Shown here: positions 5,826-33,668 of the stretch, piece by piece
Layout: the number at the start of each line of letters is the position of its first letter
How positions within the stretch are numbered: position 1 is the stretch's first letter
Source of the DNA: Methylobacter tundripaludum SV96
GTDB lineage: Bacteria > Pseudomonadota > Gammaproteobacteria > Methylococcales > Methylomonadaceae
DNA: 64,000 nucleotides
Assembly: GCF_000190755.2 (NCBI RefSeq)
Contig: NZ_JH109152.1
Span: 1,719,774 to 1,783,773 of the forward strand
Reading direction: 5' to 3'
The notes under the pieces: generated by a model
Seen by the model: only the letters and a program-made list of their open reading frames with translations
Database searches by the model: none
What the model was told of the DNA's origin: nothing
Position numbers and translations under genes: made by a program

Positions 5826-6197
5826 TAACTGATGTTACGCAGTTAGTTGAATTTCGACCGCTTTAACATTAAGGAGTCGCTAGCGCGACACTTGATTGAA
5901 TCGGGTTGTCGCACCCGAAGGCGAGTTACTTTCTTTTGCTTCGCCTCGGCAACTGCTCCTGCGTTGCTCTACCTCCTGCATCCATGCAGTCGAAAAGAAA
6001 GTAACCAAAGAAAAGGCGACCCGGTTGCCGCTTACTTCCTGCGCTCCTCGCTTTTATCGAGGGTCAGCAGAAGGGGCTCCTGCCCCTCTGCTGACGCGCG
6101 GCATCCCTGCCGCGCCCCTAACGGGCTGTTCTCGATAAAAGCTCCGATGCTCGGCGCGGCAAACGGGAGAAATACCATCCGTGCGTAACATCAGTTA
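5826..6197. mobile_element. 372-bp non-coding element with 16-bp perfect terminal inverted repeats
   Basis: The left end TAACTGATGTTACGCA (5826-5841) is repeated exactly, inverted, at 6182-6197. No protein gene fits inside; the short open frames there are low-complexity shadows of hairpins. The interior has a 13-bp stem GTTACTTTCTTTT / AAAAGAAAGTAAC (5925-5937 with 5993-6005) and hairpins with TCCT, TCCA, TCCT and TCCC loops, that is NGGA on the minus strand. A MITE-like element moved by a transposase acting in trans is the likely nature; the partner transposase is not identified. The rest of the gap 5666-6250 shows no gene. Confidence 0.75.
5949..6115 (-). repeat. Array of hairpins with NGGA loops (array A)
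   Basis: Read on the minus strand, the hairpins are: 6096-6115, arms GCGCGGCA / TGCCGCGC, loop GGGA; 6063-6095, arms of 14 and 15 bases beginning GTCAGCAGAGGGGC, loop AGGA, one bulged base; 5976-5989, arms CTGCA / TGCAG, loop TGGA; 5949-5967, arms GCAACGC / GCAGTTGC, loop AGGA, one bulged A. GGAGGTAG lies between the last two, so GTAG almost abuts the 5949-5967 hairpin. The same order and spacing recur at 23.8 kb. Confidence 0.7.
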
Positions 6198-10993: not shown

Positions 10994-11092
10994 AACTAAT
11001 AACTATATCCAATGCTCTATAGTAAGCTATGCGGCATTTCCCCCCTGCTCAATTTTCTATCGGTGCCAACACTAAATCTTCGTGAGATTCCA

Positions 11093-13606
11093 ATGAAAGG
11101 CTACTTATCTGAATTTAGGGTGGGTGCGTCTGTTTTAATCGTTTTTGCATTTAGTTTGTTGCTCCTGCCTTTTGCAAGGGCGGACGAGCCTATTTATGCT
11201 GCAAACAGCGAATCGAAGGGGTTTGGCGCTCAGAGCCCGGATCAGCTCGCCGGCATCAAGCCCACCATCTCCAAGCAATCCAAAACAAAAGCCGACACGC
11301 CGGCCGCCGCGATCGGATTCGCTCGTACCGACACAGCCAAATCCTCGACGGTTCTGAAAGACGTGGCAGATATGGATCTTGATGAACTGGTCAAGGTCAG
11401 AGTCTCCCCTTTCGAGGTTTCCACGCGTATGGACACCGGCTACCGCGCCTCGAACTCGGTGTCCGGCTCCCGATTCGACACGCCAATCCAAAATCTTCCG
11501 TTTGCCATTCAGGCCTTCACCGATTCCTTCATCAAAGACCAAAAGCCGGTGAATATCTTCGATGTCGCCCGCTACTCGCCGGGCGTCACCTACCGCAGCA
11601 ACGATTTCACCGAGGGTAACGCAAACCTCGCCATCCGCGGCTTCGCCGTCAGTGCCACCCCCGGCAACGTCCAAATTTTGCGCGACGGGGTCCACGGCCC
11701 CTCGATCTTCGATTTCACCAACATCTCCCGCGTCGAGGTGGTCAAGGGCCCCGCCTCGTTTCTTTACGGCCAGGTCGCTCCCGGCGGTGTCGTCAATATC
11801 ATCACCAAGAACCCCCAATCCAAGTTCGCCGCCACCGCCGATGCCCGTTACGGCGCATACGGCCAATATCGTTTCGATACCGACGTGACGGGACCTGCCT
11901 CGAACACCCTGTTTTACCGGCTTGCCTCCTCCTACGACCATGACATCGATTATTGGAATCCTTACGACGCGCATTCTTGGGACGTCTCGCCGTCTTTGCT
12001 CTGGCAACCCAGCGAGCGCCTGAGCGTTTCGCTTAAGTACGAAAACTTCCGCAAGGAGGAACAACCGCAGCTGATGCAAAAACCCGGCTACGGCACTCAA
12101 GCCGGCGTGGTGCCGACTCCGTCCGACCCCAACCTCTCGGGTGTCGATGTTCCCAATCTGCCCGACCATTGGAACAGCATGTCCAACGCGGATTTTCGCG
12201 ACAGCCAAACGCATAACCTGAGCACCTGGATCGATTTCAAGGCCGACGACCACTGGAACCTGCGTACCGGCTATTCGCACCTTGAATACGAAGTCGACGC
12301 GCTATTTTCCGGCAACCTCGGCATGGCCAACAATCAAACCCTGATGCAGGGCCGCCGCGTCAGGAAACAGACCTACACCAACCGCGACGATACCGTCGAA
12401 ATTCAGTCCGTCGGCAACTACAACTTCGGTTGGACCAGCCTGCACCTGCTGTTCGGCGGCCAGTATGTCATCCGCCGTTTCGACAACAGGGCCGCGCAGG
12501 CTGCCAATGACCCAGCACTCGGCAGCAATCCCACCGCGTCGCCGCTGCCGCTGTGGAACCTCGGCGACCCTAACACTTGGAACCGCGATGTAACGGTACC
12601 TGTTTCCGCGCTGACCGCAAATGCTACCGATCAGACCAGCGAGTATGTGGACAAGTCCGTTTACAGCGGCACGACGTTAGGCTTCTTCGACAACCGCTTG
12701 CTGGTGCTTGCCGGTGGGCGCCTAACCTCGACGCAAAGCCGGCTGACCAACCGCCTGACCAGCCAGTCCCAACCCGAAATCACGGCGTCCGCGGTCACGC
12801 CTCAATACGGCGTGCTCTACAAGCTCACGCCCGGACTCTCGGCATTTGCCACCTATGCCGAGTCGTTCGTTCCCGGTTCGCAAATGCTGAATAATCCCGA
12901 TGGAACCAGCACGCCCGCGGCCCCAACCGAAGGCCAAGGCTACGATATCGGCATCAAGGCCGATTTGTTCGGCGGTCGCGTTTCCAGCACGCTGACTTAC
13001 TTCGATATTGTTAACAAAAATATCGTCAACGATCTCGCTACGACCAACGCCGCCGGTTCGGTAGTGGTCTCCAACGTCCAAAGCGGCGAGCAACGCTCCC
13101 AAGGCATCGAGTGGGACGCCACCGCCAAGGTGACCGATAATTGGCAGGCCTACCTTTCTTACAGTTACATGGACGCACGTATCACGGAATTCAGCGGCAA
13201 CGACGCCGCCGTTCTCGCCCAAGACCCGTTGACGCTGGACGCCACCGGACAGGCCAATTACAAGAACGTAAAACGTTTTCATAACGCCCCGCTGCAAATG
13301 AGCGCGCCGCATCTCGCCAACCTATGGACACGCTACGACTTCGGCACGGAGAAACTTAAGGGGCTTTACCTCGGCGGCGGCGTCAACTTCGTCTACGACC
13401 AGACGCTGCTGCCCGACAGCCCCAAATTCGCCCATCAGACTTATGCGCTGCTTAACGCGATGATAGGCTACTCGTGGAAAATGGGCGGCCACGGCATGAA
13501 CGTCAACCTGATGGGCAAGAACCTCGCCGATGAACACTACCGGCCCTCGCAAAGCACGCGCAGCCGTCCCCGCGAATTTCTGCTCAGTTTCTCGCTCAGA
13601 TTCTGA
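11093..13606 (+). CDS. TonB-dependent outer-membrane receptor (siderophore type)
   Basis: This is a protein of about 837 residues. The ATG at 11093 gives a good signal peptide (MKGYLSEFRVGASVLIVFAF...). The plug domain reads VSPFEVSTRMDTGYRASNSV, LPFAIQAFTDSFIKD, RGFAVSATPGNVQILRDGV and VEVVKGPASFLYGQVAPGGV, followed by NIITKNP; the barrel ends SRPREFLLSFSLRF with the terminal Phe needed for barrel assembly. Such receptors import ferric siderophores or similar ligands using TonB energy. The PFEVST / NSVSGSR style of plug is common in Verrucomicrobia receptors. The gene is visibly richer in GC, with GCC/GGC/ACC codons, than its neighbours, so transfer is possible. YfiR and a sensor kinase follow directly. 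Confidence 0.9.
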   Translation: MKGYLSEFRVGASVLIVFAFSLLLLPFARADEPIYAANSESKGFGAQSPDQLAGIKPTISKQSKTKADTPAAAIGFARTDTAKSSTVLKDVADMDLDELVKVRVSPFEVSTRMDTGYRASNSVSGSRFDTPIQNLPFAIQAFTDSFIKDQKPVNIFDVARYSPGVTYRSNDFTEGNANLAIRGFAVSATPGNVQILRDGVHGPSIFDFTNISRVEVVKGPASFLYGQVAPGGVVNIITKNPQSKFAATADARYGAYGQYRFDTDVTGPASNTLFYRLASSYDHDIDYWNPYDAHSWDVSPSLLWQPSERLSVSLKYENFRKEEQPQLMQKPGYGTQAGVVPTPSDPNLSGVDVPNLPDHWNSMSNADFRDSQTHNLSTWIDFKADDHWNLRTGYSHLEYEVDALFSGNLGMANNQTLMQGRRVRKQTYTNRDDTVEIQSVGNYNFGWTSLHLLFGGQYVIRRFDNRAAQAANDPALGSNPTASPLPLWNLGDPNTWNRDVTVPVSALTANATDQTSEYVDKSVYSGTTLGFFDNRLLVLAGGRLTSTQSRLTNRLTSQSQPEITASAVTPQYGVLYKLTPGLSAFATYAESFVPGSQMLNNPDGTSTPAAPTEGQGYDIGIKADLFGGRVSSTLTYFDIVNKNIVNDLATTNAAGSVVVSNVQSGEQRSQGIEWDATAKVTDNWQAYLSYSYMDARITEFSGNDAAVLAQDPLTLDATGQANYKNVKRFHNAPLQMSAPHLANLWTRYDFGTEKLKGLYLGGGVNFVYDQTLLPDSPKFAHQTYALLNAMIGYSWKMGGHGMNVNLMGKNLADEHYRPSQSTRSRPREFLLSFSLRF

Positions 13607-13620
13607 ATCCGCGCGAATTC

Positions 13621-14193
13621 ATGAAAGGCATTTATTTTATTCGCTGGGCAGCCGTTCTGTTGCTCATGCTTTATTGGCCAAGTCTGAGCGTAGGCCAGGA
13701 GTTGGCGGCAGAGAACCCGAACAAGGTCGAAGCCGCTTTCCTGCGCAATTTCGCCCGCTACGTGACTTGGCCCCCCGGTGTATTCGCTGACGACCGTTCA
13801 TCCTGGCGTATCTGCATCCTGGGCAACGATCCGTTTGGCGATGTGTTGGATAACACGCTGACGGGGCGCGCTGAGCAGGAGCGCTCATTTGAAATTGTTC
13901 GTGCGGATACCCTGAATGAATTGCCGAATTGCCAGATTGTCTTTGTCGCCTATCAAGATGCCGCGAAACGCCGCGCAGCGCTCGCGGCATTGAAAAACCG
14001 GCCGATCCTGACGGTCAGCGATGCCCCCGAGTTTTTGCAGGAGGGTGGAATCATCCAGTTTCATGTCGGGGATCGCGTGGAAATGAGCATTAACCTCGAT
14101 CAGTCGCGTTCCGCATCGTTGACGATACAGACCAAGATGCTGGAAGTCTCTCGAGAAGTGGTCGAAAACGGGGAGGTGAGAAGATGGCGTTAA
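13621..14193 (+). CDS. YfiR-family periplasmic regulator
   Basis: The protein has 190 residues. An N-terminal signal (RWAAVLLLMLYWPSLSVGQ) is followed by the YfiR/DUF4154 fold: VEAAFLRNFARYVTWPPGVF, WRICILGNDPFGDVLD, NCQIVFVAYQDAAKR, PILTVSDAPEFLQEGGIIQF and a C-terminal MLEVSREVV. YfiR proteins sit in the periplasm and restrain an inner-membrane partner, a diguanylate cyclase in Pseudomonas. Here the partner is likely the next gene, a CHASE-type kinase, whose start overlaps this stop by 10 bases. The receptor gene lies 14 bases upstream, so the three form one operon. Confidence 0.9.
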   Translation: MKGIYFIRWAAVLLLMLYWPSLSVGQELAAENPNKVEAAFLRNFARYVTWPPGVFADDRSSWRICILGNDPFGDVLDNTLTGRAEQERSFEIVRADTLNELPNCQIVFVAYQDAAKRRAALAALKNRPILTVSDAPEFLQEGGIIQFHVGDRVEMSINLDQSRSASLTIQTKMLEVSREVVENGEVRRWR

Positions 14194-16766
14194 TCAACTT
14201 TCGGCAACAGAGCTTTCGCAAAAAGCTCATCCTCGCATTGTTTATCGCGGCGCTGCTGGCCTTTGCGGCGGCGAGCGCGGCGTTTATGCTGTTTGAGCAT
14301 CTTTCGCTGGAAAGCCGCGCCCGGCAGGTCATGGAGCCATACGCTCAACTGGTTTCCGTTAGTGCGGAAGCGGCGGTTGCTTTTGAGGACTCGGGACGCT
14401 CCCAGGAAATTCTCGATACCTTACGGGCCAATCCGCAAATTCTTGAAGCGCAAATCAATTTGCGTGACGGACGAATGCTGGCCCGCTACAGCATTCGCTC
14501 CAACACAACATTACCCCAGCCTCTACCTACAGCTAACGGTATTTACCTGGATCGAAACACCGCGGTTTTGGTGCAGCGTCTGCAAGATAACGCGTATTTG
14601 TATCTTGCCATGAATCTGGACGAACTTAACCGTCAAACCCGTAACACCCTGCGGGTGTTTGCTATAGGCGTGATCGTGCTGCTGGCGACCGTTGCCCTGG
14701 GCCTGCTGGCCGCTCTCCAAAAAAGCATCGTCGGTCCCATCTCCACGCTGGCCGAGACTGTCGAACAGGTGCATTCCCACGCGGATTACAGCCAACGCGT
14801 GTTGACTTCCGGTACCGACGAGGTCGCCCGGCTGAGCCAAAGCTTCAACGCCATGATGGACGCGATACAGGAACGTGAAGACGATTTGCGTCGACTCATG
14901 CTGTTCCAACGGACGCTTTTGGATAATGTGGCCCATGGCATTATCTCAACGGCGCCCGACGGCACGGTGACCAGCTTCAATCGTGCCGCCGAGTCATTGC
15001 TGGGTTACACGGCCGATGAAGTGATAGGCAAACAAACGCCGGCGCTCTGGCACGATACGGAAGAAGTTGCACAGTACGCCCTGCACTTGTCCGAAGAACT
15101 GGGCGAAACGATATTGCCGGGATTCGCAGTGTTTTCGGCCCGCCCCCGGCGCAACCTGACCGAGGAAAAAGAGTGGACATTCATTCGCAAGAATGGCGCG
15201 CGCGTGCCGGTGCTGTTGTCCGTGACCGCACTACGAACGGAGAGTGGGCAAATCACCGGTTTTGTCGGCCTGACTTATGATCTTACCGAACGCAAGCAAG
15301 CGGAGAATGAACTTAGGCGGCACAAGGATCAACTGGAGGAAACGGTACAGCAACGCACGGCGGACTTGCTTCTTGCCAGGGACGCGGCCGAAGCGGCCAA
15401 CAAGGCCAAAGGCCTGTTTCTGGCTCATATGAGCCACGAACTGCGCACGCCGTTGAACGGCATTCTCGGCTATGCGCAGATATTGCAGCGGGATGAGCTC
15501 GTTGGCGAGCGCAAGGCTGCCGCTCTCAATATCATTCGCCAAAGCAGCGAATACCTGCGGGCGCTGATTGACGATATTCTCGATTTGTCCCGTATCGAAA
15601 CCGGCAGGCTTGATTTCGTCTTGAGCAACATCTCTCTGGCTAAGTTCCTGCGCGGCGTCACCGATATAGTCGGCCTCAGGGCGCGGCAAAAGGGGCTGGA
15701 GTTTTCCTGCGAGCTGGCAGCCGATTTACCCGCGGGCATCCGTTGCGACGAGCGGCGGTTGCGGCAGGTGTTGCTCAACCTATTGACCAATGCGGTCAAA
15801 TTTACCGACAGCGGGCAGGTTGTGTTGCGTGTCGGCCGGGTCGGGCCGTCCCGGTTCTCCTTTGCTGTTGAGGACACCGGCATCGGTATCGAGCAAAACG
15901 AACTGGAACTTATCTTCCGGCCCTTCGAACAGGTCGGCGACTTGCAGCGGCGGCTTGGCGGCACCGGTTTGGGTCTTGCCATCAGCCGTCAACTGATGCG
16001 CTATCTGGGCAGCGATATCGTGGTTGAAAGCCGCGTCGGCAAGGGCAGCACCTTCAGATTTGAAGTTGAACTCCAGGCGGCGAGTAGTTCCACACCGGTA
16101 TTGCTGAACCCGATGCAGGTTATCACCGGATACAAGGGGCCGCACCGCAAAGTGCTGATTGTCGATGATGTCGCTTCGAACCGCGCCGTCCTGGTTGACC
16201 TGCTTAGCCCATTGGGTTTCGGAATTATCGAGGCATGTGACGGCATTGAGGCACTGGAGCTGGCCCAAGCCGCGATACCTGACCTCATCCTGATGGATAT
16301 CGTCATGCCGAAGATGGATGGCGAGGAAGTGACGCATCTTCTGCGCCAGTTACCGGCTCTGGCGCAGGTGCCTATTATCGCGCTGTCCGCCAGCGCCTCA
16401 AACGCCGATGAGACGAAATGCCTGCAAGCCGGAGCCAATGCCTTTCTGCCTAAACCTGTCGATCAGGACGAACTGCTCGCGCAGATGGCGGCGCTGATGC
16501 AACTTGAATGGATCACCGTGCCGCGAACAGAGCTTACTCCGAACCCAGGGGAGCTCGCCGAAATGCTGATTCTGCCGCCTGCCGCAGAGATGCAGGAGTT
16601 ATACCGGCTGGCGCTGACCGGCAACATGCGCGACATCTTGCAGTATGCTGAGCGCATTGCCGGAATCGACCCCAGCTATCAAGCTTTCGCTACGCACTTG
16701 CGTCAGTTGGCCAACGGCTACCAATCGAAGGCTATTTTGGCTTTTGCTGAAGCGCATTTAACATGA
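14184..16766 (+). CDS. Hybrid sensor histidine kinase (CHASE8-HAMP-PAS-HisKA-HATPase-REC)
   Basis: The protein has 860 residues. Membrane helices at about 13-38 and 155-178 enclose a periplasmic CHASE8-like sensor (LESRARQVMEPYAQLVSV; FEDSGRSQEILDTLRANP). HAMP follows, then PAS (about 245-365), HisKA with H in FLAHMSHELRTPLNGI (about 417), HATPase (LRQVLLNLLTNAVKF; DTGIGI; GGTGLGLAIS) and REC with the phospho-acceptor in DLILMDIVMPKMDG (about 703). A tail of about 65 residues (MRDILQYAERIAG... LANGYQSKAILAFAE) recurs in the kinase at 60.3 kb and in the fragment at 22.5 kb. It likely signals envelope or receptor state sensed with YfiR. No separate response regulator is adjacent. Confidence 0.92.
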   Translation: MALINFRQQSFRKKLILALFIAALLAFAAASAAFMLFEHLSLESRARQVMEPYAQLVSVSAEAAVAFEDSGRSQEILDTLRANPQILEAQINLRDGRMLARYSIRSNTTLPQPLPTANGIYLDRNTAVLVQRLQDNAYLYLAMNLDELNRQTRNTLRVFAIGVIVLLATVALGLLAALQKSIVGPISTLAETVEQVHSHADYSQRVLTSGTDEVARLSQSFNAMMDAIQEREDDLRRLMLFQRTLLDNVAHGIISTAPDGTVTSFNRAAESLLGYTADEVIGKQTPALWHDTEEVAQYALHLSEELGETILPGFAVFSARPRRNLTEEKEWTFIRKNGARVPVLLSVTALRTESGQITGFVGLTYDLTERKQAENELRRHKDQLEETVQQRTADLLLARDAAEAANKAKGLFLAHMSHELRTPLNGILGYAQILQRDELVGERKAAALNIIRQSSEYLRALIDDILDLSRIETGRLDFVLSNISLAKFLRGVTDIVGLRARQKGLEFSCELAADLPAGIRCDERRLRQVLLNLLTNAVKFTDSGQVVLRVGRVGPSRFSFAVEDTGIGIEQNELELIFRPFEQVGDLQRRLGGTGLGLAISRQLMRYLGSDIVVESRVGKGSTFRFEVELQAASSSTPVLLNPMQVITGYKGPHRKVLIVDDVASNRAVLVDLLSPLGFGIIEACDGIEALELAQAAIPDLILMDIVMPKMDGEEVTHLLRQLPALAQVPIIALSASASNADETKCLQAGANAFLPKPVDQDELLAQMAALMQLEWITVPRTELTPNPGELAEMLILPPAAEMQELYRLALTGNMRDILQYAERIAGIDPSYQAFATHLRQLANGYQSKAILAFAEAHLT

Positions 16767-16823: not shown

Positions 16824-17223
16824 TTACTTTTTTCCACCCTCTTGTGACTTTCTTGGCCGTCCCTGTGGTTTAATTTTAGTGCGCCGCCCCAAAGCGGCTT
16901 CGACTTCATCCTGAAACTTGCCCGAACCAGAAAGTTCCAGAATGCCGATACATCCTGTTGATATAGTGCACATAACGTCGACCAACCGATTGCATTAAAC
17001 CGGAAACCCCACCCTGCATTTCACCTGGCGCCAACAAGTGAACATAATTAGTCATCTGTACAAACGCATAAAGCTTGCAGTTATTCTTCACCAAAGCTTC
17101 ACGCAGGTATTCAAGGTAGGTGCAATAATCGCCTTCATGAAAGAAAATGGGCTGACGGTTATTGCCCCGTTGCACAATATGTTGCGGGATATTCGGCAAG
17201 TTAAGGCGAGGAAGACGCGGCAT
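16824..17223 (-). pseudogene. REP-associated tyrosine transposase (RAYT, Y1/HUH type), inactive relic
   Basis: The start MPRLPRLNLPNIPQHIVQRG at 17223 and the following NNRQPIFFHEGDYCTYLEYL are typical of REP-associated transposases. The HUH motif reads MTNYVHLL, with Tyr where the first catalytic His (TNHVHLL) is expected. After GTFWFG the frame jumps: the next frame continues KFQDEVEAALGRRTKIKPQG and RPRKSQ, the normal C-terminal tail, so an internal stretch of roughly 70-80 codons is deleted. Such enzymes process REP hairpins as single-stranded DNA. This copy should be dead; repeat array B lies just upstream of it. Confidence 0.9.
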
Positions 17224-17280
17224 AATGGTTATGTATGTGATAACACACAATAATGTAACCTGCCCCCCTTTTCCTCGAAA

Positions 17281-17507
17281 ACACGAAGGCCACGGAGAAA
17301 AACAGTCGTTTTAATTCAATGCATTGAAAACTTCGTGTTCTCGGCAATTGCTAAGTTACATGGATGTAATGAATGCAGAAAATGCAGGAGCATTTTTCTG
17401 CCCTGCATTGCTAAACCACAGGGATGTGGCGAATGCAGAAAACGCAGGAGCGGTTTTCTGCCTACCTCCTGTATCCGTACAGTCGTTCGTGCCTTCGTGG
17501 TGAATTC
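17281..17507. repeat. Repeat array B: two tandem 60-bp units with covarying hairpins
   Basis: Unit 1 (17345-17404) and unit 2 (17405-17464) align base for base at a 60-bp period. Each has a small hairpin (TTACA / TGTAA around TGGA at 17356-17369; CCACA / TGTGG around GGGA at 17416-17429) and a larger one around AGGA (GCAGAAAATGC / GCATTTTTCTGC at 17375-17401; GCAGAAAACGC / GCGGTTTTCTGC at 17435-17461), both with one bulged base. 17469-17482 (CTGTA / TACAG) has CGGA on the minus strand. CACGAAGGC at about 17282 and GCCTTCGTG at about 17491 close the array as an outer inverted repeat. No gene is seen in 17224-17638. Confidence 0.85.
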
Positions 17508-17638
17508 TTTAATTGTTCTAAAAACGAATATTTTCACAGCTTCAGGAGCTTGGGAGCTAGCGAAAACAGATGACGTTATTTGCGGGTGAAGAAGGGATGC
17601 AACACAGCAAGTGTGCTGCATCCGCGATTAAACAACTA

Positions 17639-20029
17639 TCAATATTTGATAGTAATACCGACAAAGGCTGAGCGCCCCATGCCGGCTATGTTTCTCCCCC
17701 AAGGCACGGTGACATTTGCCGCCGCCGTTGGGTTCATGCCGTAACGGTCGCCTAGATAAGCCCCGGCCAGCGGCTGGTAATACTGTTTGTCCAGTACGTT
17801 ATCCAAGCCGACATCCAAACGCACTTTGCCCCATTCGTAGCCGGTTCTGGCATTCAGCAGAACGTAGGACGGCGTTTGGGTTTCGTTGCGGATTGCCTGA
17901 ACATCGCTTTTGCTATCGACGAACTGCATTTCCAGCGCACTTTGCCAGTTGCTCAAGCGATGATCCAGGCTGAGTTTCATGTTGAACGGCATCATGTGGT
18001 AGAGATTGCCGCCATCCATACGTTCTCCCCGCACGTAACTCATCGTGGTATGCGTGGCGAATTCTCCCAGCTTTTTGTCCTTATACAGCTGGGCTCGGCC
18101 TGAGACATCGGCGCCCCACAGCCGTGCATCGTGATTGGCGTATTGCAAATAGACAAAGCTGTTGGTTGCGGTTTGAGGGGTTGCTTTACAACCACTGGCA
18201 GCAGCTGTCGATGTACTCCGGCAACGATCCGCATCAATGAAATTATTCACATAGGTGAAATAGGGCGTGGCGCTGAATTCCCAAAGACTGCTTTTCGGTT
18301 CGTGAAACGCCGCGGTAAAACTGACGGTATGCGCGGTTTCTTCGGTCAAATCCATGTTGCCGATATAGCCGTTGCCATCGCCATGCCAGCCAATCATCGC
18401 CATGTCCATATTGCGCGCTCCCCAAGTGTAGCGTTCGTACAGATTGGGCGCACGGTTTTTGCGCGCATAGCCCAATTCATACTGGCTCAGATCGTTGGGG
18501 GTATACTGCACCAATGCCGTGACATCGAAGGTATCGTTATTACGCTTGTGATCGCGTGCATTGAATGCATTGGCTGCATTCAAATCGGTTCGAGCGCCGG
18601 CTGCATCAGGCGCCGCTATGCTAGTGCCTAAGAGGTTGGGATTGTAAGGCTGGACATTGCCGGTATCGGTGCTGGTGTGATCGTAACGCAAGCCCAGCTG
18701 GCTTTTCCACTGCGCTGTCCAGTTGGCTTCCCATTCCCCGAAGAAACCGATCCGTTCCCGCTCGCCATTATTGATGTTGATGTAGGTTTCCGGCGCCATC
18801 ATCCAATAAGCGCCGGGCGGGGTTGGCCCTGTAAGATTGCTATGCACCGCCGGCCAAAAATCATTGAGACGGTTGTTGTGATACTCGTTACCGATACGGA
18901 AGGTATCTCGCTCAGAAAAAGGTATTTCCGCCTGGATTTTGTAACCCAGGTTACGGCCACGGGTCTCCATCGGCATTTGATCGTTAGGCGGCGCAAAGCC
19001 TCCTCCGGTAACTGAGCCGTCCAGGAACTGCTTATGCTTGTCCTGACCCATATCCATGCTGTGCTGGGTACTTTCAATATAAAACTTGCTCTCCAAGTTA
19101 CCCCAGTCGAATGTGCCTTTGTGCAGGATATTGCCAAAGATGCTGTCGTTGTTGGTCAAGTCCATCCGTTGGTTCGGGAAGCCTTGGAAAGGCATGTGCT
19201 GTTGACCGCCTCGGATCACCACGAGATGGTCGTCAGTTTTGAACGACAAGGCTGCCGAGTGGTTTTGATTCTCGTAAGCGCTGGATTGTACGGCTTGGCC
19301 GTTGCCGTCTCTGTAATTCCTGCTTTCGGTATGCGAGCCGGCATACTCCAGCCGCACGTTCCGGTTGGCCACACCGGCGGCGATACTGCCGCCAAACGCA
19401 TCGCCGTTGCTACGGTAAAACGATGACGCGCTGCCATCCAGTAAAATATCCTTGCCTGGCTCGGCAAACACTGGATCAGGCGTTTGTATCGAGATTGTTC
19501 CGCCGATACTGTCGCCCCCCAAACTCACCGGTGTTACCCCGGACAAAATGGTGATCTTACCGATATTGCTGCGGTCGATATAAGACAGTGGCGGGTTCAT
19601 GTGGTTGGCACAGGCCGAGGTCAGGGTCATACCGTTGATGTCGATTTTGACACGGTCGTCGTTCAGGCCGTGAATCACAGGAAGGCTGGACACACCGCCC
19701 GCACCGTATAAGCTGACGCCCGGCGTATCTTCCAGTAATTTGGCGGTATCGCTGATCGCCGCGCGTTTACTGTCGAGAATATCGGCCTCCATTTCGGAAG
19801 TGCCCAAATTTTTCATGCTAGGGAACTTGCCGGTGACGATCAGTTTTTCTAATACGACGGCGTTTTGTTCCGTGGGTTGATCCTGAGGATTTTCGGCCGC
19901 CATTACCGAAGTCGCCAGGCACAACGGCAACACGCCGATAATTCCGCCATAACGGGCTTGCGCGCTAACTGCATTGGCAATGGGCTTAAGAGGAAAGCAG
20001 GGATGAGTGAACGAATTGAAGGCTTTCAT
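17639..20029 (-). CDS. TonB-dependent copper receptor (OprC/NosA-like)
   Basis: The 796-residue protein has a long signal peptide ending near LATSVMAAENPQ, a plug domain (AKLLEDTPGVSLYGAGGVSS; PVIHGLNDDRVKIDINGM; ITILSGVTPVSLGGDSIGG) and a barrel ending FVGITIKY. The plug contains TSACANHMNPPLSY near residue 140; OprC of Pseudomonas binds copper through a CxxxM motif at this place. His/Met-rich loops follow (STQHSMDMGQDKHKQF; PPNDQMPMETRG). It should import copper across the outer membrane with TonB energy. The HMA-TauE and His/Met-rich genes upstream on the same strand fit a copper role. About 120 bp upstream is AT-rich and may hold the promoter. Confidence 0.88.
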   Translation of the reverse strand: MKAFNSFTHPCFPLKPIANAVSAQARYGGIIGVLPLCLATSVMAAENPQDQPTEQNAVVLEKLIVTGKFPSMKNLGTSEMEADILDSKRAAISDTAKLLEDTPGVSLYGAGGVSSLPVIHGLNDDRVKIDINGMTLTSACANHMNPPLSYIDRSNIGKITILSGVTPVSLGGDSIGGTISIQTPDPVFAEPGKDILLDGSASSFYRSNGDAFGGSIAAGVANRNVRLEYAGSHTESRNYRDGNGQAVQSSAYENQNHSAALSFKTDDHLVVIRGGQQHMPFQGFPNQRMDLTNNDSIFGNILHKGTFDWGNLESKFYIESTQHSMDMGQDKHKQFLDGSVTGGGFAPPNDQMPMETRGRNLGYKIQAEIPFSERDTFRIGNEYHNNRLNDFWPAVHSNLTGPTPPGAYWMMAPETYININNGERERIGFFGEWEANWTAQWKSQLGLRYDHTSTDTGNVQPYNPNLLGTSIAAPDAAGARTDLNAANAFNARDHKRNNDTFDVTALVQYTPNDLSQYELGYARKNRAPNLYERYTWGARNMDMAMIGWHGDGNGYIGNMDLTEETAHTVSFTAAFHEPKSSLWEFSATPYFTYVNNFIDADRCRSTSTAAASGCKATPQTATNSFVYLQYANHDARLWGADVSGRAQLYKDKKLGEFATHTTMSYVRGERMDGGNLYHMMPFNMKLSLDHRLSNWQSALEMQFVDSKSDVQAIRNETQTPSYVLLNARTGYEWGKVRLDVGLDNVLDKQYYQPLAGAYLGDRYGMNPTAAANVTVPWGRNIAGMGRSAFVGITIKY

Positions 20030-23770: not shown

Positions 23771-23935
23771 ACGAAGGCCCGAAGGACACGAAGAAATACA
23801 ACTTCGTGTCCTTCGGGCCTCGGCAATTGCTCCTGCATTACCCTACCTCCTGCATAACCCACAGGGATGTGGGGAATGCAGATTTTGCAGGAGCAAAAAT
23901 CTGTCCTTGCAGTCGTTCGTGGTGAATAAAAGAAG
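23771..23935. repeat. Repeat array C: long hairpin plus covarying NGGA hairpins
   Basis: A 19-bp perfect stem (23775-23793 with 23802-23820, starting AGGCCCGAAGG) opens the array. Then come 23822-23842 (minus strand arms GGTAATGC / GCAATTGCC, loop AGGA, one bulged A, preceded by GTAG), 23858-23873 (CCCACA / TGTGGG around GGGA) and 23879-23903 (CAGATTTTGC / GCAAAAATCTG around AGGA, one bulged base). The array ends AGTCGTTCGTGGTGAAT, like array B. No gene lies in 23723-24064. Confidence 0.85.
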
Positions 23936-33036: not shown

Positions 33037-33409
33037 TTAAGGCACATACCGAAGCCGTGAGCACTTATTAAAAGCGCTTGGGCAAGTCCCGGTTCTCAGG
33101 TGTTCAACCAATGATTGCTAAAATTTGGGTATTAACCTATCGCCCCACACAACCGACAGCTTGCGAATGAATGACAGCGTCACACTTTCTCCCGCCGTAA
33201 GTAATAATCACCTGCCAAGCAATCCCGAATCTTTAACGCCGGACGGCTTTTTATACAATCTGCTGATGACAGTATCATCAAAAAAACAGTACAATACCCT
33301 GCGTCAGAAAACAGATGTTGAGTTAAGGGATTCCTAAATTGTTAGGTTGTCCGGTTATCAATGTTGTAGTTCTGTGTTAACCGTAAGTTTTTATTTTAGG
33401 AGTTTCAAA

Positions 33410-33613
33410 ATGGCAACAGGCACTGTAAAGTGGTTTAACAACACGAAGGGTTTTGGTTTTATTGCACCTGCTGATGGCGGCGAAGATGTTTTTGTTCACC
33501 ATTCAGTTATTCAGGGCGAAGGCTTCAAAACTTTGACTGAAGGCGACACGGTCACTTTTGACATCGAATCAGGTCCAAAAGGCTTAACTGCTGCTAATGT
33601 TTATTCCAAATAA
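33410..33613 (+). CDS. Cold shock domain protein
   Basis: The 67-residue protein is a single cold shock domain: [20 protein letters not shown] carries RNP1 (KGFGFI) and VFVHHSVI carries RNP2. It binds single-stranded RNA and DNA. The start is ATG 33410, after TTTTAGGAG; the in-frame extension upstream is not family-like. The preceding 100 bases may be the 5' leader typical of such genes. Confidence 0.96.
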
Positions 33614-33630
33614 GGAATAGACAGCTTTAA

Positions 33631-33668
33631 AAAAAGCCCTTGCGATTCACATCGCAAGGGCTTTTTTT
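33631..33668. terminator. Terminator of the csp gene (bidirectional)
   Basis: Arms AAAAAGCCCTTGCGAT and ATCGCAAGGGCTTTTT are perfect complements around TCAC, with A and T runs on both sides. It can end the csp transcript on the plus strand and that of the convergent TM2 gene on the minus strand. Confidence 0.95.

Follow-up and report, generated by a model that had tools for sequence, protein, structure and literature searches.

Repeats of the GTAG REP, BIME and REPIN kind are the closest described relatives of the elements reported here. In the available text of PMC3733652 and PMC3116915, they bear a GTAG at the base of a short hairpin, reach high copy number, divide into subfamilies with compensating stem changes, form tandem groups, have copies in genes and, in some families, lie inside palindromes. 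The accessible part of PMC3733652 thus already describes REPs in palindromes and genes and subfamilies with compensating stem changes; it also states that REP copies often, not always, flank the RAYT gene, and it mentions Rickettsia palindromic elements. TnpA-REP enzymes recognise the GTAG, the loop or the bulge and cut at CT or CA, according to the available portion of PMC8266576, where the mechanisms of REP dissemination are called poorly understood. The elements analysed here share all the traits listed for GTAG REPs, and an earlier note on this DNA had likened them to REPs. That comparison is right in kind as to anatomy (GTAG, bulged hairpin), but the mobile unit, here called the core, is a fixed pair of unlike hairpins with defined ends and empty sites, it nests mutually with a second family, and no linked RAYT was found in the loci searched.

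Non-autonomous IS200/IS605-type elements, as portrayed in the accessible parts of PMC8266576 and PMC6006769, likewise have hairpins near both ends, a guide-like motif 5' of a hairpin and no target duplication, and in our elements too the bulge and loop could be read as single strand. Our elements differ in measuring only 47-49 bp, in apparently using no fixed target tetranucleotide, and in having a transposase that we infer. Like Rickettsia palindromic elements, the core is a small palindromic repeat with in-frame insertions in genes for proteins, but it differs in sequence and host, and its copies are 48 bp long within genes and 47 or 48 bp between them. CsrB/RsmZ-type small RNAs string together hairpins whose loops carry GGA and whose stems vary. 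The array described below is built in this way as well; it differs in consisting of dispersed insertions, with no Rfam match at gathering score and no strand on which G-U pairs are preferred.

The window is the whole stretch of DNA analysed, 64,000 nucleotides from Methylobacter tundripaludum SV96. The array is a core with two insertions of a second element, the block (Table 1): removal of both blocks leaves exactly the canonical 47-bp core. On the minus strand the core reads CGA, hairpin X (stem, NGGA loop, stem), GAGGTAGA, hairpin Y (stem, GC-AGGA-GC, bulge, stem) and CGA. The block consensus, on the strand opposite to the core, reads AAN, CCACA-NGGA-TGTGG, N, GAAT and then a nine-bp stem with GC-AGGA-GC and a bulge. 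Core and block are of one design, with a hairpin X closed by an NGGA loop, a short linker with GTAG (core) or GAAT (block) as its guide-like motif, and a bulged hairpin Y closed by an AGGA loop. An identical block at the identical site as block 1 occurs in locus L002, and locus L032 has a block at the site of block 2.

Table 1. Features of the array and related features of the window. A slash marks a point of insertion.
Feature	Position in window	Strand	Remarks
Host element (core), 47 bp	17341..17485 in three pieces: 17485-17462, 17412-17402, 17352-17341	minus	Spliced sequence CGACTGTACGGATACAGGAGGTAGAGCAATGCAGGAGCAATTGCCGA; uninterrupted copies elsewhere; model R1 matches
Block 1, 49 bp	17353..17401	plus	Inserted at TTGCT/CCTGC, the loop of core hairpin Y
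Block 2, 49 bp	17413..17461	plus	Inserted at TTGCT/CTACC, between core hairpin Y and GTAG
Core hairpin X	17469..17482	minus	CTGTA CGGA TACAG; from DNA fold and splicing
Core GTAG, guide-like motif	17462..17465	minus	Cognate hairpin Y split by the blocks
Block 1 hairpin X	17356..17369	plus	TTACA TGGA TGTAA; then GAAT, 17371-17374
Block 1 hairpin Y	17375..17401	plus	Nine-bp stem, GC AGGA GC, one-base bulge
Block 2 hairpin X	17416..17429	plus	CCACA GGGA TGTGG; then GAAT, 17431-17434
Block 2 hairpin Y	17435..17461	plus	Nine-bp stem, GC AGGA GC, one-base bulge
Uninterrupted 47-bp core	5946..5992	minus	Elsewhere in the window
Core with one block	23821..23915	minus	Block 23856-23904 (plus) in loop of core hairpin X
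Broken Y1 transposase gene, group-1 RAYT type	16906..17250	minus	Profile positions 4-89 of 121; 90 bp from core

The earlier note had seen two adjacent, gap-free 60-bp units in this array, with compensating stems, constant loops and a constant bulge. Tandem Repeats Finder returns the same period (60, 1.9 copies, 82% matches, 0% indels, 17347-17462), but these are two insertions into a third element rather than tandem units, and the period is 60 bp because a 49-bp block is followed by 11 bp of core, the two insertions lying 11 bp apart. The stem differences (TTACA with TGTAA against CCACA with TGTGG; AATGC with GCATT against AACGC with GCGGTT) are as described and hold in further copies, and the TGGA or GGGA and AGGA loops and the one-base bulge beside the inner GC pair are present as claimed. 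The note had also placed a GTAG before a minus-strand hairpin; the motif is there, but the hairpin adjoining it is an inserted block read backwards, and the motif's own hairpin is the one that has been split. The array as a whole sits within a larger inverted repeat of CACGAAGG-type units (window 17273-17340 and 17486-17506), and numerous cores of the window's own genome sit in CACGAAGG-type repeats, at CACGAA/GACACG.

Both families are abundant. Model searches of the window's own genome, with 150 candidates scored in each, returned at least 146 core and 43 block matches, the former a lower bound because of the number scored. An exact 22-base core pattern occurs in at least 114 stretches of named genomes, which contain 136 core matches, and the matches listed include Shewanella, Pseudoalteromonas, Methylobacter, Methylomonas, Methylovulum, Zhongshania, Neptunomonas and Lysobacterales. 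With at most one mismatch, the core was found in 30 of 369 gammaproteobacterial genomes, while a backward control pattern was absent among the matches listed for the same 369. Head-to-tail core arrays with 47-bp steps occur in Shewanella, and Methylobacter loci have the nested form and the array's flanking repeats in common with the window. GTAG is invariant in all 35 aligned cores, whose retrieval pattern contained it and fixed most of the 5' side of hairpin Y; it is also present in own-genome blastn matches found before any pattern was used. The 78 own-genome cores left after removal of double listings measure 47 bp (45 copies), 48 bp (32) or 49 bp (one), and the family combines REP-type high copy number with a mostly intergenic location, 16 of these 78 lying in long open frames. 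One block pattern had no exact match in viral contigs, and five Pseudoalteromonas plasmid records hold about one fifth of the query.

Evidence of movement comes from empty sites. For twelve core insertions, 70 bp from each flank were joined, and uninterrupted, near full-length counterparts exist in congeners for all twelve sites, for one of them also in the window's own genome. The core insertions are presence/absence polymorphisms; precise loss in relatives, conceivable for any single site, is not likely as an account of all twelve. The twelve empty loci that were fetched represent five of the sites, and three of these have clean junctions. L246 lies in an IS3-like element of which the same genome has a second copy; that copy lacks precisely the 47 bp, has an unaltered junction and differs by one A about 37 nt upstream. 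The junctions at L251 (47 bp) and L309 (48 bp) are equally clean except for substitutions, and those at L308 and L315 are blurred by substitutions. Neither target duplication nor target loss was found at the three clean core junctions. A 194-bp match in genome G384 to the L318 site looks like a filled site in a relative. The core does not match the description of a MITE of a DDE transposon, having no duplication at the three clean junctions and CGA...CGA ends that do not form a long inverted repeat.

A 47-bp core occupies one shared spot, T/GAAGTACGCC, in three IS3-like elements (L246, C1:263-309; L247, C1:540156-540202; L251, C1:1114111-1114157). The spot follows an A6-7G run and apparently falls between orfA and orfB, and empty copies exist for both element types. 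The AGGAGG and hairpin of an IS3-borne core might affect frameshifting.

At its targets the core shows a preference for A/G but apparently no fixed tetranucleotide: the preceding base is A in 62 and the following base G in 70 of 85 rows, seven of which are copies listed twice. Hairpin loops recur among the targets. A core sits inside a block AGGA loop (GCA/GGAGC) at 11 places in 10 loci, on four kinds of stem, and the commonest hairpin invaded in this way has 11 uninterrupted copies in own-genome loci. Conversely, of 73 blocks extracted by loop, inner bases and linker, 47 lie at CAT/CC, the loop of core hairpin X, nine at GCT/CTA, eight at GCT/CCT and nine in other contexts. Blocks enter core loops at T/CC, and cores enter block loops at A/GG. 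Because the 73 blocks have core-like flanks, the case for independent movement of the block in its own genus rests on its presence at three different core sites, together with free-standing copies elsewhere; blocks free of any core are found in other genera (L096, L119, L120). The GCAGGAGC hairpin loop may be a candidate landing site for the core. Many core targets are not hairpin loops, and some are palindrome centres, as judged by eye. Cores also invade a third type of repeat, in which an NGGA hairpin (CCTACA NGGA TGTAGG) is followed by GTGAGCA/GGAGC (L036, L040, L052, L262, L298).

The minus strand of the array, folded as DNA, stands far outside its dinucleotide shuffles (z -4.78, 0 of 200 as stable); the plus strand, folded as RNA, does so to a lesser degree (z -2.93, 1 of 200). 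Among 35 distinct cores, aligned under the retrieval pattern noted above, 97.6% of cells pair, five of 12 pairs change on both sides, and the covariation score is 0.253 against 0.119 in shuffled data, a value reached by none of 500 shuffles; the number of two-sided pairs was matched in 15 and that of pair types in 230 of the 500. For 16 blocks the corresponding values are 96.9%, nine of 16 pairs, and 0.270 against 0.126, with 0 of 500 shuffles matching the score or the two-sided pairs and 20 of 500 the pair types. In both sets the signal is lost once the partners are slid. Covariation is mainly between a few subfamilies and represents few independent events.

Across 44 distinct block sequences, two-sided changes are Watson-Crick in 38 cases and not in two, whereas one-sided changes leave the pair intact in 33 cases and broken in 42 (31 and 28 without two out-of-register rows). 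Paired changes thus outnumber unpaired ones overall, 71 to 44, or 69 to 30 without those rows, so that the outcome named in the earlier note as refuting its view, unpaired changes no rarer than paired, is not seen in the total. The earlier note had argued that covariation shows selection on the folded form, and the two-sided changes and conserved loops support the covariation, but the one-sided changes indicate that single changes are almost free to drift. Covariation between subfamilies with decay inside them is as expected if selection acts on moving copies. One-sided changes in blocks yield G-T 19 times and A-C 16 times, so that nothing points to the plus strand in particular as a folded RNA; the parity fits folding as DNA, or no strand-specific folding. 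In either family the loops of both hairpins keep GGA, with a variable preceding base in hairpin X; some cores (two of 35 aligned) have lost the GGA.

Copies inside genes have a distinct length. Frames open for at least 160 nt on both sides surround 16 of 32 48-bp cores and none of 45 47-bp cores (Fisher p 4e-8), with a threshold picked after inspection of the list and with some of the 16 lying within other repeats; in 14 of the 16 it is the GTAG strand that carries the open frame. Ten core insertions fall in nine proteins matched by Pfam, a tenth protein being without a match, and all ten are 48 bp long, lie in frame and have GTAG on the sense strand (sign test p about 0.002). In leucyl-tRNA synthetase the core falls within the stretch matched to the editing domain; an ATP-grasp protein contains two cores, and further hosts include an M3 peptidase and a rod-binding/glucosaminidase protein. 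Genes flanking 47-bp cores tend towards this orientation too, with 14 of 20 lying so 5' of the core and 13 of 20 lying so 3' of it. Tolerance of the peptide, single strands exposed by transcription, or selection at the RNA level could each explain this pattern of the genic copies. The 48-bp genic copies and the 47-bp copies outside genes amount to a natural experiment in mobile DNA becoming protein, leucyl-tRNA synthetase included. In-frame cores of 16 codons within conserved genes (L302, L295, L309, L318 and others) use two of the three open frames and encode different peptides.

A transposase was sought among Y1 enzymes. The broken gene near the array lacks the stretch in which a relative has the catalytic-tyrosine motif, and the 2 kb of locus L349, which holds an intact relative from a congener, contain no core motif. 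A tblastn search for a linked autonomous copy, with 11 own-genome Y1 proteins against 114 core loci (815,788 bases), found Y1 genes in two loci only, and among the 11 own-genome Y1 loci elements occur only near the broken gene of the window. In 12 core-bearing genomes, 25 readable loci of 30 with Y1 genes revealed no hairpin Y of core or block type in the 600 nt on each side, in a scan for hairpins of at least seven pairs, a filter for which hairpin X is too short. A RAYT of group-1 type occurs in 24 of 30 core-bearing genomes versus 157 of 339 others, an association equalled by a control Y1 type (18 of 30 versus 87 of 339) and hence non-specific; genome G241 lacks any group-1-type hit despite its six core matches. 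RAYT subclasses 2.1 and 2.3 are reported, in the accessible part of PMC6006769, without flanking REP-like structures, which makes them candidates. Core strands along contigs (25 plus and 34 minus, 18 and 9, 5 and 7) gave nothing clear as to lagging-strand bias, nor did the GC skew of the flanks, taken on the core strand (mean -0.005 for 47-bp copies, 25 of 45 positive; +0.033 for 48-bp copies, 21 of 32 positive). A core-like stretch at L017:620-690, with hairpin X lengthened to 14 pairs and a CGGA loop, lies about 0.8 kb from a Y1 gene.

Other readings of the array were weighed against these results. A genuine tandem duplication of a 60-bp unit, whose copies then diverged while selection kept them folding, would account for the gap-free alignment at 82% matches, but it is scarcely credible: the 49-bp pieces occur singly elsewhere, the 11-bp spacer is core, and what remains is an intact core of 47 bp. 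The uninterrupted cores and single-block copies rule out duplication in this form. A reading at the RNA level takes the NGGA hairpins as candidate binding sites for CsrA/RsmA and the repeats as dispersed CsrA sponges or regulatory leaders. The CsrA consensus is RUACARGGAUGU, which the NGGA loops resemble; the GGA is constant in either hairpin of each family, with a variable preceding base in X, the GGA strand is sense in 10 of 10 cores in Pfam-matched genes, and the genes beside 47-bp cores share that lean. We nevertheless regard such a role as improbable, since on the GGA strand G-U is not favoured over A-C, some cores lose the GGA, and the nested families lie on opposite strands, so that one transcript never shows all the GGA loops. 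Moreover, the array locus has no Rfam match at gathering score, only noise with E above 6; a search of the window at gathering score gave no Csr/Rsm family, and neither did one of 17200-17650 that admitted E values up to 10. No paper linking CsrA with such repeats was found in the literature searched.

The elements might also be mobile through an agent other than a Y1 enzyme, either another recombinase or a capture of single-stranded DNA at hairpins resembling replication slippage. Consistent with this, linkage to a Y1 gene was not found, with Y1 genes in two of the 114 core loci and no hairpin Y in the 25 Y1 flanks, and the core ends in CCGA, unlike the CT or CA at which known GTAG-guided enzymes cut. 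Such an agent seems unlikely, although less so than a CsrA role: clean junctions lacking target duplication are expected of HUH-Y1 and not of the usual DDE enzymes, GTAG and the bulged hairpin match TnpA-REP substrates, and the element ends are precise across many genera. The combination of GTAG, bulged hairpin and absence of duplication fits HUH-Y1 enzymes, and the mover is probably a Y1 enzyme; that it belongs to group 1 is doubtful.

We therefore favour, as the likely explanation, two REP-like non-autonomous elements that move as single-stranded DNA by means of a transposase of the IS200/RAYT (HUH-Y1) type. The hairpins would be recognised, as folded single-stranded DNA, by this enzyme acting in trans, and insertion would proceed without target duplication, hairpin loops being one recurrent landing place. 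The folded form would be selected at the time of movement; stems would then covary among subfamilies around an unchanging loop, bulge and guide motif, and copies, once resident, would decay. More tentatively, core and block, each a pair of unlike hairpins packed into 47-49 bp, could rank with the smallest complete transposition units and be mobilised in trans by an orphan class of RAYT (group 1, subclass 2.1 or subclass 2.3) with folded loops as landing sites. If so, two families of elements parasitise each other. The evidence for movement of tiny repeats is unusually clean here, and since the sequence itself shows the unit, its exact ends, its preferred target and the polymorphic empty sites, candidate enzymes and targets are directly testable. 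In the texts available from the literature searched, largely outside subscription journals, we came across neither a two-hairpin REP-like unit with reported empty sites nor two such families each nested in the other. The Shewanella families in Figure 1 of PMC3733652 may already include core hairpin Y.

Two further features of the window lie apart from the repeats. A match to the Rfam cspA thermoregulator spans 33296-33665 on the plus strand (83.4 bits against a gathering score of 78). At 11012-16766, genes for a TonB receptor, a YfiR-like protein and a hybrid histidine kinase follow one another in a row and perhaps constitute one signalling operon.
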